Assembly: GCA_026003335.1 (NCBI GenBank)
Contig: BPHB01000001.1
Span: 570,591 to 634,590 of the forward strand
DNA: 64,000 bases
Direction of reading: 5' to 3'
From: Chitinophagales bacterium
GTDB lineage: Bacteria > Bacteroidota > Bacteroidia > Chitinophagales > CAIOSU01
Numbering within the stretch: position 1 is the stretch's first letter; each line of letters opens with the position of its first letter. The position numbers and the translations under genes are program-made. Of the stretch, positions 27,168 to 32,206 are shown piece after piece. A model generated the notes under the pieces. It searched no databases, had not been told where the DNA came from, and worked only from the letters and a program-made list of their open reading frames with translations.

Positions 27168-28607
27168 ATGATATACATCCTCATCTTCCTGCCGATGGTC
27201 AGCTTTTCACTTATTGTGATGTTGCTGGGCAACTTCTTTGAGCGTGCCGGAATGGACAAAAGCAAAGCACGCATCCCCATTGTGAACCTTTGGTATCTTT
27301 TCCCCATAACGGAGCGCAGCCCGCTATGGGGAATATTTTACTTCATACCTTACCTGAATCTGATTCTGATTATCTGGCTTATCACGGAATTTCTAAAGGC
27401 TTTTGACAGACGCGATATCCTTTCGCAGGTGCTGGGAATTTTTCTCGGCTACATCTATTTGCCCATACTAAACTATACCTCAAAAATCACCTATCGCCAG
27501 AGCTCTGCAGCTGAAAAATCCACTGTAAGGGAGTGGGCCGATGCACTCATATTTGCTGTGGTTGCTGCTACTATCATCCGTACTTTCATTATGGAGGCCT
27601 ATACTATCCCCACCGGGTCTATGGAAAAAACACTGCTCGTAGGCGACTTCCTGTTTGTGAGTAAATTTCATTACGGCCCCCGTGTTCCCATGACTCCGCT
27701 TTCCTTTCCCTTAACGCACAATACACTCCCGCTTACCGGCACCAACTCTTATGTGGAATGGATTAAACTACCCTACTACCGACTTCCCCGCCTTGAAGAT
27801 ATTAAGCGCTATGATATTGTCGTATTCAACTGGCCTCAGCAAGACAACCGCCCGGTGGACAAACGAGATAATTATATTAAACGCTGTGTGGGGCTGCCCG
27901 GTGATACAATCCTTGTAGTACAGGGGATATTATACGTCAACGGTAAACGCGCCTATGAGCCGGAATACATGCAATATCAGTATTTCGTGCAAACCGATGG
28001 CACCCCTTTTTCTACACAACTGCTGGAAGAATATGACATCACCGATGCCATGCGCGTGGCGTCTAACAAAGGCCTGTATCTTATGAATCTCACCCGGGCC
28101 AACTATGAGCGCATAAAAAGCCTGCCGTTCGTCAAATCCGTGGAGCCCAAAGTATCTCCCAAAGGGCAAATAGAACCTCAGCGCTATTATTTCCCGCCCG
28201 ATATCAAAAAGTACCCGTATAACGTGGACTATTACGGCCCGGTCACGGTGCCTTTTAAAGGGCAGGTCATTGAGCTAAATACCCATAATCTTCCCCTCTA
28301 CTATCGCCTGATTACGCTATATGAACAAAATTCGCTGGAGGTGAAAGATGATAAAATTTTCATCAACGGAGAGCAGACAGCCACATACACCGTTAAGATG
28401 AATTATTACTGGATGATGGGTGATAACCGGCATAACTCTGAAGACTCGCGCTTCTGGGGATTTGTTCCTGAAGATCACATCGTGGGTAAAGCATGGATTA
28501 TCTGGCTCTCGCTGGATAAGGGCAAAAGCCTGCTGCATAAGGTGCGCTGGAATCGCATCTTTAACATCATTCAGGGAGCTCCACTCTCTCCGGAATCTGC
28601 AAACTAA
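27168..28607 (+). CDS. lepB: Signal peptidase I
   Basis: A 479-residue type I signal peptidase, which cleaves signal peptides of exported proteins at the outer face of the inner membrane. The catalytic serine is Ser151 in IPTGSMEKTL and the lysine is Lys238 in DNYIKRCVGLPGD. The later boxes MMGDNRHNSEDSRFWG and VGKA are present. The N-terminus is longer than in E. coli: three extra hydrophobic segments in residues 1-105 precede the usual membrane anchor (about 122-142), an arrangement seen in other Bacteroidota signal peptidases. About 190 residues between the Lys box and the GDN box form an enlarged non-catalytic domain. Confidence 0.95.
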   Translation: MIYILIFLPMVSFSLIVMLLGNFFERAGMDKSKARIPIVNLWYLFPITERSPLWGIFYFIPYLNLILIIWLITEFLKAFDRRDILSQVLGIFLGYIYLPILNYTSKITYRQSSAAEKSTVREWADALIFAVVAATIIRTFIMEAYTIPTGSMEKTLLVGDFLFVSKFHYGPRVPMTPLSFPLTHNTLPLTGTNSYVEWIKLPYYRLPRLEDIKRYDIVVFNWPQQDNRPVDKRDNYIKRCVGLPGDTILVVQGILYVNGKRAYEPEYMQYQYFVQTDGTPFSTQLLEEYDITDAMRVASNKGLYLMNLTRANYERIKSLPFVKSVEPKVSPKGQIEPQRYYFPPDIKKYPYNVDYYGPVTVPFKGQVIELNTHNLPLYYRLITLYEQNSLEVKDDKIFINGEQTATYTVKMNYYWMMGDNRHNSEDSRFWGFVPEDHIVGKAWIIWLSLDKGKSLLHKVRWNRIFNIIQGAPLSPESAN

Positions 28608-28634
28608 AAATATCCGACCAGTTTGTTTTTCTTT

Positions 28635-28656
28635 TTTATCGTATTTTTACGATAAA
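28635..28656. promoter_or_regulatory. Candidate ArsR operator, site 1
   Basis: A perfect 9-bp inverted repeat, TTTATCGTA-N4-TACGATAAA, ending eight bases before the arsR start codon. It overlaps a -7-like element TATTTTTA (28642-28649), with a TTTG at 28622-28625 in the -33 position, so a bound repressor would block the promoter. The same CGTA-N4-TACG core recurs before arsM. This suggests autoregulation by the adjacent ArsR protein. Confidence 0.65.
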
Positions 28657-28664
28657 TATTTATC

Positions 28665-28994
28665 ATGGGCACCGCCAAACTGGACGAGTTTACACTCAAA
28701 GACAATAAAACAGCCCTTTATGCCAGGGCGCTGGCACATCCCGCACGCATAGCCATAATCCGGTTGCTCCTGAAAAAGAGAACCTGCATCTGCGGAGAAA
28801 TTGTAAATGAACTGCCACTGTCTCAATCCACAGTTTCACAACATCTGCATGAACTGAAAAAGGCCGGTTTGATCAACGGAACAATTGAGGGCAAGAGAAT
28901 CTGCTATTGCCTGAATGAAGAGGAATGGAAACAAGCCAAACTATACCTCGGTGGACTACTGGATACTGCCGTTGCAAAAATTAAATGTTGTTAA
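28665..28994 (+). CDS. arsR: ArsR-family metalloregulatory repressor
   Basis: A 109-residue winged-helix repressor of the ArsR/SmtB family. It reads LAHPARIAIIRLLLKK, then ELPLSQSTVSQHLHELKKAGLI, which is the recognition helix region at residues 49-70, then the wing at GTIEGKRICYCL. Candidate ligand cysteines are Cys41 and Cys43 (TCICGE, at the usual alpha-3 position but as CxC before the helix), Cys80 and Cys82, and a C-terminal Cys108-Cys109 pair. Arsenite binding would release it from DNA. Its location directly before arsM and the inverted repeats at both genes support an arsenic sensor. The exact ligand set cannot be fixed by eye. Confidence 0.88.
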   Translation: MGTAKLDEFTLKDNKTALYARALAHPARIAIIRLLLKKRTCICGEIVNELPLSQSTVSQHLHELKKAGLINGTIEGKRICYCLNEEEWKQAKLYLGGLLDTAVAKIKCC

Positions 28995-29008
28995 CCCCTT
29001 AAAAATAA

Positions 29009-29024
29009 AACGTAACATTACGAT
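29009..29024. promoter_or_regulatory. Candidate ArsR operator, site 2
   Basis: The sequence AACGTAACATTACGAT contains CGTA-N4-TACG with the same spacing as site 1 and shares the half-site TACGAT. It lies in the 55-base gap between arsR and arsM, 26 bases before the arsM start. The left half-site is weaker than in site 1. This would give arsM its own ArsR-controlled element. Confidence 0.5.
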
Positions 29025-29049
29025 TATATAACCCCTCAAAAATCATTTT

Positions 29050-29862
29050 ATGCAAATAGAAAATGAACTTAAGAAAATGGTAAAAGAAAAATACAGCAGC
29101 ATAGCCAGCCAATCCCGTGAACAGAACGCTGCTTCCTGCTGCGGAGCAACCTGCGGCTGCAGCGATGTCACCCATATCATGGCCGACAGTTATAAGAATA
29201 TGGCGGGCTATGTCCCCGATGCTGATCTCGGTTTGGGATGTGGCCTTCCAACCCGTTTCGCCATGATAAAAAAAGGCGATACGGTAGTAGATCTCGGTTC
29301 AGGGGCCGGTAATGATTGCTTTGTTGCCCGAGCTGAAACGGGTGAATCCGGAAGGGTCATCGGCATTGATATGACCGAGGCAATGATTGAACGTGCACGT
29401 CAAAATGCGGAAAAACTAGCATATCAGAATGTGGAATTCATTTTAGGTGAAATTGAGAACATCCCGCTGCCATCCTCTTTGGCTGACGTAGTAATCAGCA
29501 ACTGTGTACTCAATCTGGTGCCTGACAAACGCAGGGCCTTTGCAGAAATCTTCCGCATTCTGAAGCTTGGAGGACACTTCTCCATTTCCGATGTTGTAAG
29601 GATAGGCAACCTACCGGGGAAAATCATGGAGGCATCCGAAATGTATGCAGGCTGTATTGCCGGAGCTCTTCAAAAATCAGACTATCTGGCAATCATTCAA
29701 GAAACCGGATTCATCAATCTGACTATACAACAGGAAAAAGTCATTTCCATTCCCGATTCTATTCTTATGAACTATTTGAACACTGCCGAACTCCACGACT
29801 ATAAAAACAGTGGCGCAGGCATTTTCAGTATCACTGTTTACGCTGAAAAACCTCTTGTTTAA
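29050..29862 (+). CDS. arsM: Arsenite methyltransferase
   Basis: A 270-residue SAM-dependent methyltransferase that methylates arsenite to methylated and possibly volatile arsenicals. The SAM motif is VVDLGSGAGNDCFVA at residues 79-93. The As(III)-binding cysteines expected for ArsM are present: Cys64 (LGLGCG), Cys152 (SNCVLN) and Cys202 (AGCIAGA). An N-terminal cysteine cluster CCGATCGC (30-37) is also typical of bacterial ArsM. It follows arsR after 55 bases containing a candidate operator. With ArsC (31787-32206) it would reduce arsenate and methylate the product. Confidence 0.93.
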   Translation: MQIENELKKMVKEKYSSIASQSREQNAASCCGATCGCSDVTHIMADSYKNMAGYVPDADLGLGCGLPTRFAMIKKGDTVVDLGSGAGNDCFVARAETGESGRVIGIDMTEAMIERARQNAEKLAYQNVEFILGEIENIPLPSSLADVVISNCVLNLVPDKRRAFAEIFRILKLGGHFSISDVVRIGNLPGKIMEASEMYAGCIAGALQKSDYLAIIQETGFINLTIQQEKVISIPDSILMNYLNTAELHDYKNSGAGIFSITVYAEKPLV

Positions 29863-30008
29863 TGGCAGTTCATATAAAGAACCGACACATAGTACCCTCT
29901 TTGCACACCCACAAAAAGAGAATACCTGCCATAGGAACCTTAATATACGTTAATTTGCAATTCACAGAGCTTACTAATATTGCCTGATTAAATGCTAATT
30001 AAAGTCCG

Positions 30009-30380
30009 TTGAGACTGCTGCTTATCATAGGAGCGGGAAGTTTTATGGGCGGAATATTCCGATTCCTGCTTTCGCGCTGCATACAGGAAAAAATTTTTAC
30101 CAGCTTTCCTTTGGGAACCCTCAGCGTAAACATAATCGGATGCTTCCTGATTGGATGTGTTTTCGGGCTGAGTGAAAAATCAGATCTCTCACAGGAATGG
30201 CGCCTGTTTATGGTTACAGGTTTATGCGGTGGATTTACCACCTTTTCTGCCTTTTCACAGGAAACACTCAGTCTGCTTCGCGATGGCCAATATGCCTATG
30301 CCGGCATTTATGTTGGTGCCAGCCTGTTGCTGGGTTTGATAAGCACTCTTGCTGGAATATACACCCTTAAACTGCTTTGA
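30009..30380 (+). CDS. crcB: Fluoride channel/exporter CrcB (Fluc)
   Basis: A 123-residue Fluc-family protein with four membrane helices, forming dimeric fluoride channels that protect against cytoplasmic fluoride. Key marks are GTLSVNIIG with Asn41, and GGFTTFSAFSQE (residues 74-85) with the conserved phenylalanines of the fluoride path. The start is a TTG at 30009, and no ATG is available before the first helix. The DUF190 gene begins two bases after the stop. No fluoride riboswitch motif was seen upstream. Confidence 0.92.
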   Translation: MRLLLIIGAGSFMGGIFRFLLSRCIQEKIFTSFPLGTLSVNIIGCFLIGCVFGLSEKSDLSQEWRLFMVTGLCGGFTTFSAFSQETLSLLRDGQYAYAGIYVGASLLLGLISTLAGIYTLKLL

Positions 30381-30381
30381 T

Positions 30382-30753
30382 ATGCAAGAACACAGCCAGG
30401 CCAGGCTCCTGCGGATATTTATCGGAGAGTCCGACAAACTGGGACACCAAACGTTGTATGAAGCCATCGTATTTGAAGCAAAAAAACAAGGACTTTCCGG
30501 TGCAACTGTCACACGGGGTATTATGGGCTTCGGTGCGAATTCAAAAGTTCACACTGCAAAGCTTTTTGAAATTTCATCCGATCTGCCCGTGGTAATAGAA
30601 ATCGTGGACACTGATGAAAAGATACAATCCTTTACCGAGCAGGTAGAACAGATGTTTGAGCAGGCACAATGCGGGGGGTTAATTACTATTGAAAAAGCAG
30701 AAATCATCCGCTACAAGGCGGGGCAACACAATGAAAAATCCTTATCTGAATAG
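30382..30753 (+). CDS. DUF190 family protein, CrcB partner
   Basis: A 123-residue DUF190 protein. The family marks are RLLRIFIGESDKLG, LYEAIVFEAKKQGLSGATVTRGIMGFG and LPVVIEIVDT. The fold is PII-like (ferredoxin-like), and members are often encoded beside or fused to CrcB or other transporters, suggesting a regulatory or accessory role in fluoride resistance. The ATG at 30382 lies two bases after the crcB stop, so the pair is an operon. The ligand is unknown. The glycine-rich TRGIMGFG loop is where PII-like proteins bind nucleotides. Confidence 0.9.
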   Translation: MQEHSQARLLRIFIGESDKLGHQTLYEAIVFEAKKQGLSGATVTRGIMGFGANSKVHTAKLFEISSDLPVVIEIVDTDEKIQSFTEQVEQMFEQAQCGGLITIEKAEIIRYKAGQHNEKSLSE

Positions 30754-31786: not shown

Positions 31787-32206
31787 ATGAAGAAGAAAAT
31801 TCTGGTATTATGTACAGGCAACAGCTGTCGTAGTCAGATGGCGGAGGGTTATCTGCGACACTTTAGCCGGGGCAAGGCCGACATTTACAGTGCTGGCATT
31901 GAAGCACATGGCGTCAACCCGCGCGCAGTGGAAGTGATGCTTGAGGATGGCATAGACATTTCCGGGCATACTTCCAATCACGTAGATGAATACATGCATA
32001 TTCCTTTTGACTACATTGTTACCGTTTGCGATCATGCCAGCGAACAATGTCCCATTTTCCCCGGAAAAGCACAACGTTTCCACCGCAACTTTCCTGACCC
32101 GGCCAAAGCCACCGGGTCCGAAGAGGAGATTAAGGCGGCATTCAGAAAAGTAAGAGATGCTATAAAAGAATACTGCCGGGAATTTTCAGAAAAATATATC
32201 ACCTGA
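31787..32206 (+). CDS. arsC: Arsenate reductase, thioredoxin-coupled (LMW-PTPase fold)
   Basis: A 139-residue protein with the low-molecular-weight phosphatase fold. The P-loop is CTGNSCRS with Cys9 as nucleophile. The two extra redox cysteines of thioredoxin-coupled ArsC are present at Cys81 and Cys88 (VTVCDHASEQCP), the spacing of the staphylococcal pI258 enzyme. The aspartate loop is FPDPAKATG. These cysteines separate it from ordinary tyrosine phosphatases. It reduces arsenate to arsenite, which ArsM can then methylate. It lies about 1.9 kb downstream of arsM on the same strand, with the fluoride genes and the nucleosidase between. Confidence 0.92.
   Translation: MKKKILVLCTGNSCRSQMAEGYLRHFSRGKADIYSAGIEAHGVNPRAVEVMLEDGIDISGHTSNHVDEYMHIPFDYIVTVCDHASEQCPIFPGKAQRFHRNFPDPAKATGSEEEIKAAFRKVRDAIKEYCREFSEKYIT

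Follow-up and report, generated by a model that had tools for sequence, protein, structure and literature searches.

The window, by which we mean the whole 64-kb stretch of DNA analysed, contains an arsR gene followed by arsM, and candidate operators of one kind stand before arsR (site 1) and in the gap before arsM (site 2). We think it probable, on comparative grounds, that this ArsR, which is of the ArArsR type, acts at two places to repress the operon it belongs to and that site 2 serves as a roadblock before arsM. A more specific proposal, in which many Bacteroidota ars operons would possess a second lock free of promoter function, with inner operator bases set by the -7 promoter box and an outer base pair read by residue 54 of the repressor, is offered tentatively, as somewhat less likely to hold than to fail. 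Neither the operator nor the sensor type is new, as both were published in 2025. Three features would be new, as far as the open-licence PMC literature showed us, since we found no report there of natural operons that have two sites, the second without a promoter, of an operator overlapping the -7 box, or of a pairing between residue 54 and an operator base pair. If true, the arrangement shows an autorepressed detoxification operon that keeps its repressor supplied while the methyltransferase is held off, it provides a testable one-residue rule for operator choice by ArsR, and it hints at a promoter position other than that in the founding paper.

Genes of the locus

The genes arsR (28665-28994) and arsM (29050-29862), both on the forward strand, are separated by a gap of 55 bases (28995-29049). 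Both gene calls were upheld by profile matches: the arsR product belongs to the ArsR/SmtB family of winged-helix proteins (NF033788, 73.8 bits with a cut-off of 55; PF01022, 48.1 bits with a cut-off of 22), and the arsM product is an arsenite methyltransferase (NF008823, 351.5 bits with a cut-off of 263). The solved structure closest to ArsR by sequence is HlyU (4k2e, E 1.3e-8). The CxC, CxC and C-terminal CC cysteine sets described in the earlier note were found at residues 41, 43, 80, 82, 108 and 109, and residue 54, at the start of the recognition helix, is Gln (codon at 28824-28826, forward strand). The same note had proposed a search upstream of acr3 also, which proved inapplicable, because the organism's own genome has no acr3 above the cut-off (best score 35 against 282.8 bits).

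Several neighbouring genes may be mentioned. A gene for a signal peptidase I with an N-terminal DUF5684 domain (27168-28607) lies immediately ahead of the ars genes, and arsM is followed by a CrcB fluoride exporter gene (30009-30380) and a DUF190 gene (30391-30753), in whose region no RNA family, such as the fluoride riboswitch, reached the Rfam gathering score. A thioredoxin-type arsC (31787-32206) is located 1.9 kb past arsM; no ArsR site was found in the 120 bases preceding it, where the best match covered 7 of 12 positions. A scan for sigma-70 promoters and terminators over 28500-30100 gave chance-level results only.

Sets of related loci

The first set consisted of the best 80 of at least 527 relatives in named records, together with 29 loci from related genomes; five of these 109 were left out, either because no start was found (L095, L106, L110) or because they were partial (L115, L116). 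The consensus ATCGTANNNTTRCRAT was written after viewing the first 80 loci, and a second set was therefore drawn by protein similarity, with 60 loci picked by hand among the matches listed, about one per genus, before their DNA was viewed. One further locus, L158, was retrieved through the operator sequence and is not independent. A third set came from a search with the paralogue L119, by which 30 loci were fetched and 28 were usable (L219 and L241, with no start, were left out). Thinning reduced the loci to less than 80% ArsR protein identity and left 122. Pooled counts of site 1 used a palindromic 12-position consensus with at least 11 positions matched within 120 bases of arsR; site 2 was searched with the same consensus from -10 to +90 of the arsR stop, and 100-base windows farther downstream served as control.

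Site 1 before arsR

Site 1 (28635-28656, forward strand; core 16-mer 28638-28653) reads TTTATCGTA-TTTT-TACGATAAA. Its arms, at 28635-28643 and 28648-28656, form a perfect 9-bp inverted repeat around a 4-base spacer, and eight bases (28657-28664) separate it from the ATG of arsR at 28665, as the earlier note had described. The core pattern CGTA-N4-TACG occurs exactly twice in the window, at site 1 and in the 55-base gap, again as described, against 0.30 occurrences expected; two or more occurrences appeared in 3 of 100 shuffles of the window.

The operator is widespread in relatives. At least 12 of the 13 positions of ATCGTANNNTTRCRAT were matched within 80 bases upstream of arsR in 98 of 104 loci of the first set (0.4% in shuffles), and before arsR in 76 of 89 loci of the second set, or 75 of 88 without L158; pooled with the window, 183 of 194 loci have the operator ahead of arsR, as do 111 of 122 after thinning. 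Conservation before orthologous arsR genes, the lack of which had been named beforehand as refuting a regulatory role, is thus observed in both sets, and the claim that the two sites represent a real regulatory code is further supported by the published footprint, on the same sequence, of an ArsR that shares the cysteine pattern (PMC11868830, main text). Two Scalindua (Planctomycetota) records, L032 and L085, share this ArsR and operator; TTGACT stands upstream in both, and in L032 an SBF-family transporter adjoins arsR.

The symmetrical form suggested by the window is present there but is a minority type among relatives: TA..TA stands before arsR in 45 of 183 loci, including the window, and the CGTA..TG form in 136. 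In thinned loci the most frequent centre is TAATATTG (55 of 111), giving ATCGTAATATTGCRAT. An operator of the TTTTATCGTAATATTGCGAT kind is present before the window's arsR at 28634-28653. These comparisons support site 1 as the operator of the ArArsR type, to which the window's own ArsR would bind.

Bacteroidota promoters have an upstream -33 element, TTG. Their -7 box is TAnnTTTG (PMC9723704), and TA..TTG or TA..TTA stands within the operator in the register of this box. Of the 111 thinned site-1 loci, 53 have a TTG ahead of the embedded TA at a distance of 18-21 bases, with counts peaking at spacings of 19-21 bases, whereas 1000 shuffles of the upstream 45 bases gave a mean of 8.3 (sd 2.7, maximum 18). 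In the group with a TATATTT spacer, TTG was found at promoter spacing in 14 of 17 loci (shuffles 1.3, maximum 6), two of these being the Scalindua loci with TTGACT. As judged from these sequences, site 1 overlaps the Bacteroidota -7 promoter box, and this overlap may explain the lopsided form of the operator before arsR. A strict tie between operator base 11 and the promoter is argued against by the equal frequency of TTG with G (34 of 71) and with A (19 of 40) at that base; no link between the base and promoter quality was found in these loci.

In the earlier note, site 1 was said to lie over the -7 region. The relatives agree with this, but the promoter fit in the window itself is poor: the -7-box-like TATTTTTA inside site 1 (28642-28649) differs from the consensus at its last base, A, and the candidate -33 element, TTTG (28622-28625; both on the forward strand), precedes the TA of site 1 by 16 bases, compared with a peak at 19-21 in relatives. 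In L158, TTG stands 21 bases before TAATATTG, so that the placement of the operator over the -35 element in the main text of PMC11868830 looks doubtful.

Site 2 after arsR

Site 2 (29009-29024, forward strand) is the 16-mer AACGTAACATTACGAT, one base off the half-sites of site 1, with the core CGTAACATTACG at 29011-29022, and starts 14 bases past the arsR stop. The first set has such a site in 52 of 104 loci and the second set in 30 of 89; together with the window this makes 83 of 194, and 35 of 122 after thinning, compared with 6 of 3693 control windows. Close relatives tend to agree in having or lacking site 2 (a locus and its nearest neighbour agree in 92 of 122 cases; 71.5 in shuffles, maximum 91), so the 35 thinned loci are not independent. 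Of the 83 starts, 74 fall 14-22 bases past the arsR stop; the distance to this stop is narrow (17-21 bases in most loci), whereas that to the next ATG ranges widely, from -20 to 127. Among thinned loci, site 2 accompanies 31 of 65 gaps of at least 36 bases and 4 of 52 shorter ones.

We examined whether site 2 was tied to one kind of next gene, and rejected this, since it occurs before several classes: DUF6428 (59 of 99 loci; one example was named by Pfam), arsM (16 of 59), an arsC-like class 24-48% identical to the window ArsC (2 of 7; the single example scanned gave no Pfam match), a glyoxalase class (4 of 6) and rarer classes besides. T-runs after the arsR stop are commoner in thinned loci with site 2 (19 of 35) than in those without it (9 of 87); the window has no T-run after arsR. 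A terminator hairpin before the T-run was also considered. Fold energies of -4 kcal/mol or lower were seen in 10 of 24 site-2 loci (0.42) against 0.19 of their shuffles, but the candidate was dropped because loci without site 2 fold no weaker, the mean energies being -3.83 kcal/mol with site 2 and -3.77 without (24 and 15 thinned loci).

The two sites were expected to match, and they do share one consensus, but site 2 is without the promoter context of site 1. TTG at promoter spacing was found in 0 of 35 thinned second sites. The left inner T, present in 109 of 111 first sites, is kept in 20 of 35 second sites (Fisher 3e-9, uncorrected for kinship), and among 33 loci with both sites 13 have T at site 1 and C at site 2, with 2 the reverse. 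When a relaxed consensus was applied to 222 loci, 208 of 213 primary sites retained TA, compared with 48 of 107 second sites (the relaxed control gave 25 of 3917). In ten near relatives (L230, L231, L235, L236, L242-L247), the first sites are ATCGTATATTTRCGAT and the second sites ATCGTTYATTTRCGAT, the TA of the -7 box being lost from the second site in all ten. By these sequence features, the promoter is not duplicated at site 2.

Proposed mechanism and alternatives

The lack of TTG and the constant distance to the arsR stop lead us to read site 2 as a putative roadblock to RNA polymerase, a repressor site within the transcribed region that has no promoter of its own and would arrest elongation; its position and the lack of TTG at promoter spacing fit such a role, on comparative sequence only. 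Without arsenite, an ArsR dimer on site 1, over the -7 box, would block initiation of arsR-arsM, which are presumably co-transcribed in this organism, and the same repressor on site 2, just past the arsR stop, would act as a second lock. Polymerases leaking past site 1 would then complete arsR, replenishing the repressor, and be halted before arsM; arsenite bound by C41, C80 and C82 would free both sites. Roadblocked polymerases halt about 14 bases short of the bound protein. Together with the observed spacing of site 2, this would bring the end of the RNA close to the stop codon of arsR, and, still speculatively, the T-run at the stalled RNA end. In A. rosenii, arsM was induced 351-fold, arsC 297-fold and arsR 158-fold (PMC11868830, main text); the higher induction of arsM and arsC fits a roadblock, and other causes are possible.

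It is unlikely that arsM or the next gene has an internal promoter of its own with site 2 as operator. The TA of the box does remain in 48 of 107 second sites, the window's included, and a T-run or TTTG often stands ahead of site 2 (TTTG at 13 bases in 11 of 35), but all 35 thinned second sites lack TTG at promoter spacing and their distance is fixed to the arsR stop and not to the next start codon. In A. rosenii, moreover, RT-PCR showed co-transcription of arsR and arsM, and a single promoter was placed before arsR (PMC11868830, main text).

We give little weight to the idea that the window's site 2 arose by chance or has decayed, with site 1 alone functional, which would agree with its one half-site mismatch, the missing T-run and the 87 of 122 thinned loci that have no second site. 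Only about 2.6e-4 occurrences of CGTA-N4-TACG are expected by chance in one given 55-base gap (arithmetic from the 64-kb expectation), relatives carry site 2 at the same place, and in the paralogue L119 both kinds of site have changed in step. Likewise, sites 1 and 2 are about 345-371 bases apart, and two dimers bound to them might form a DNA loop that strengthens repression; the similarity of the sites and the narrow spacing between them would suit it, but this spacing follows from the nearly constant length of arsR alone, and there is only a slight chance that looping is the explanation.

Residue 54 and the sister subfamily

L119 is a paralogue that belongs to the same family of genomes as the window. 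In it, TTCG..CGAA is found once before arsR and twice in the gap after it, a layout seen in 0 of 200 shuffles, and its ArsR is the only one of the 122 thinned proteins in which residue 54 is K. Over 221 of the 222 loci, residue 54 covaries with the outer base pair of the operator: with Q54 the pair is A..T in 203 of 205 loci (9 more Q54 loci are without a site), with K54 it is T..A in 5 of 5, and with R54 it is T..A in 2 of 2. The site 2 of L228 (K54) is half changed, with an outer pair A..A. The pairing is clean by count but goes back to one or two events, as the K54 and R54 proteins require two changes on the tree, or possibly one.

L119 and L220-L248 (minus L241), nearly all fetched with L119 as query, form a sister subfamily in which C41 and C82 are kept and K or R replaces C80. 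Within 1.8 kb after arsR, a Thioredoxin_3 gene is found in 28 of 29 of these loci and an ArsP_1 permease gene in 19 of 29, compared with 2 and 1 of 183 C80 loci. Because the C80S variant of ArArsR senses MAs(III) only (PMC11868830, main text), the members of this subfamily may be natural methylarsenite sensors. The nearest relative of the L119 ArsR (L219, G071:C15; 81% identical) is broken by two TAG codons.

Other sites in the genome

The loose pattern WWCGYA-N4-TRCGWW is not enriched across the organism's own genome, occurring at 5 places while the reversed pattern occurs at 10; the three places other than sites 1 and 2 sit inside long open frames. Allowing at most one mismatch to ATCGTANNNTTRCRAT, we found 9 further places (14 strand matches in total, sites 1 and 2 included, against 6 for the reversed pattern), of which 8 are inside long open frames and one is intergenic (L122, centre at G000:C1:1196763-1196778), where ATCTTAATTTTACGAT stands shortly before an ATG. 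Further regulon members were rejected, because the one-mismatch sites, except L122, lie in long open frames. In four paralogous ArsR-family loci (L002-L005, about 3.2 kb each) the best match was 9-10 of 12 positions.

Comparison with known systems

The closest known system is the arsRMC operon of Arsenicibacter rosenii SM-1, whose ArArsR has Cys 41, 43, 80, 82, 107 and 108, requires Cys 41, 80 and 82 for the arsenite response, and was characterised by EMSA and by its DNase I footprint, TTTTATCGTAATATTGCGATCACAATC (PMC11868830, 2025, main text). The operator of this ArsR type was thus already defined, contrary to the expectation that the window would define it. The window's ArsR has the same six-cysteine pattern (41, 43, 80, 82 and the C-terminal pair 108-109), of which C41 is kept in 121, C82 in 121, C80 in 113 and C43 in 110 of the 122 thinned proteins; the operator sequence and place and an arsM adjoining arsR are also common to both. 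The systems differ in that the A. rosenii paper describes, in its main text, one site over a -35 element, whereas in the window the site lies over the -7 box and a second one follows arsR. The exact published footprint occurs in only one of the 222 genomes, that of L158, whose ArsR has Cys 41, 43, 80, 82, 107 and 108; we regard this genome as A. rosenii itself or as one very closely related to it. Here a second site, ATCGTATTATTACAAT, stands 17 bases past the arsR stop, before arsM; it is unmentioned in the main text of PMC11868830. The window's ArsR is 50% identical to that of L158, its site 1 is symmetrical, and its arsC is 1.9 kb farther on.

The ArsR of E. coli R773 (type 1) resembles that of the window as an arsenite-responsive autorepressor of the ArsR/SmtB family; its operator differs from the kind found at site 1, and its third ligand, C37, has no counterpart in the window's ArsR, where residue 46 is Ile. 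C41 and C43 of the ArArsR type align with C32 and C34 of R773 (PMC11868830, main text). The window's ArsR also differs from CgArsR (type 3; Cys15-Cys16 and Cys55), having no Cys before 41 or at 55, and from AfArsR (type 2; C95-C96-C102), having the C-terminal pair 108-109 only.

As for the two-site layout, a review cites an arsenic biosensor that works by a roadblock, and in the biosensor pPR-arsR-ABS (Stocker 2003) a second ArsR site after arsR lowers the reporter background (PMC3918153). The latter resembles the window in having a second operator between arsR and the next gene, but it is man-made and employs the E. coli ArsR, whereas the predicted site 2 of the window is natural.
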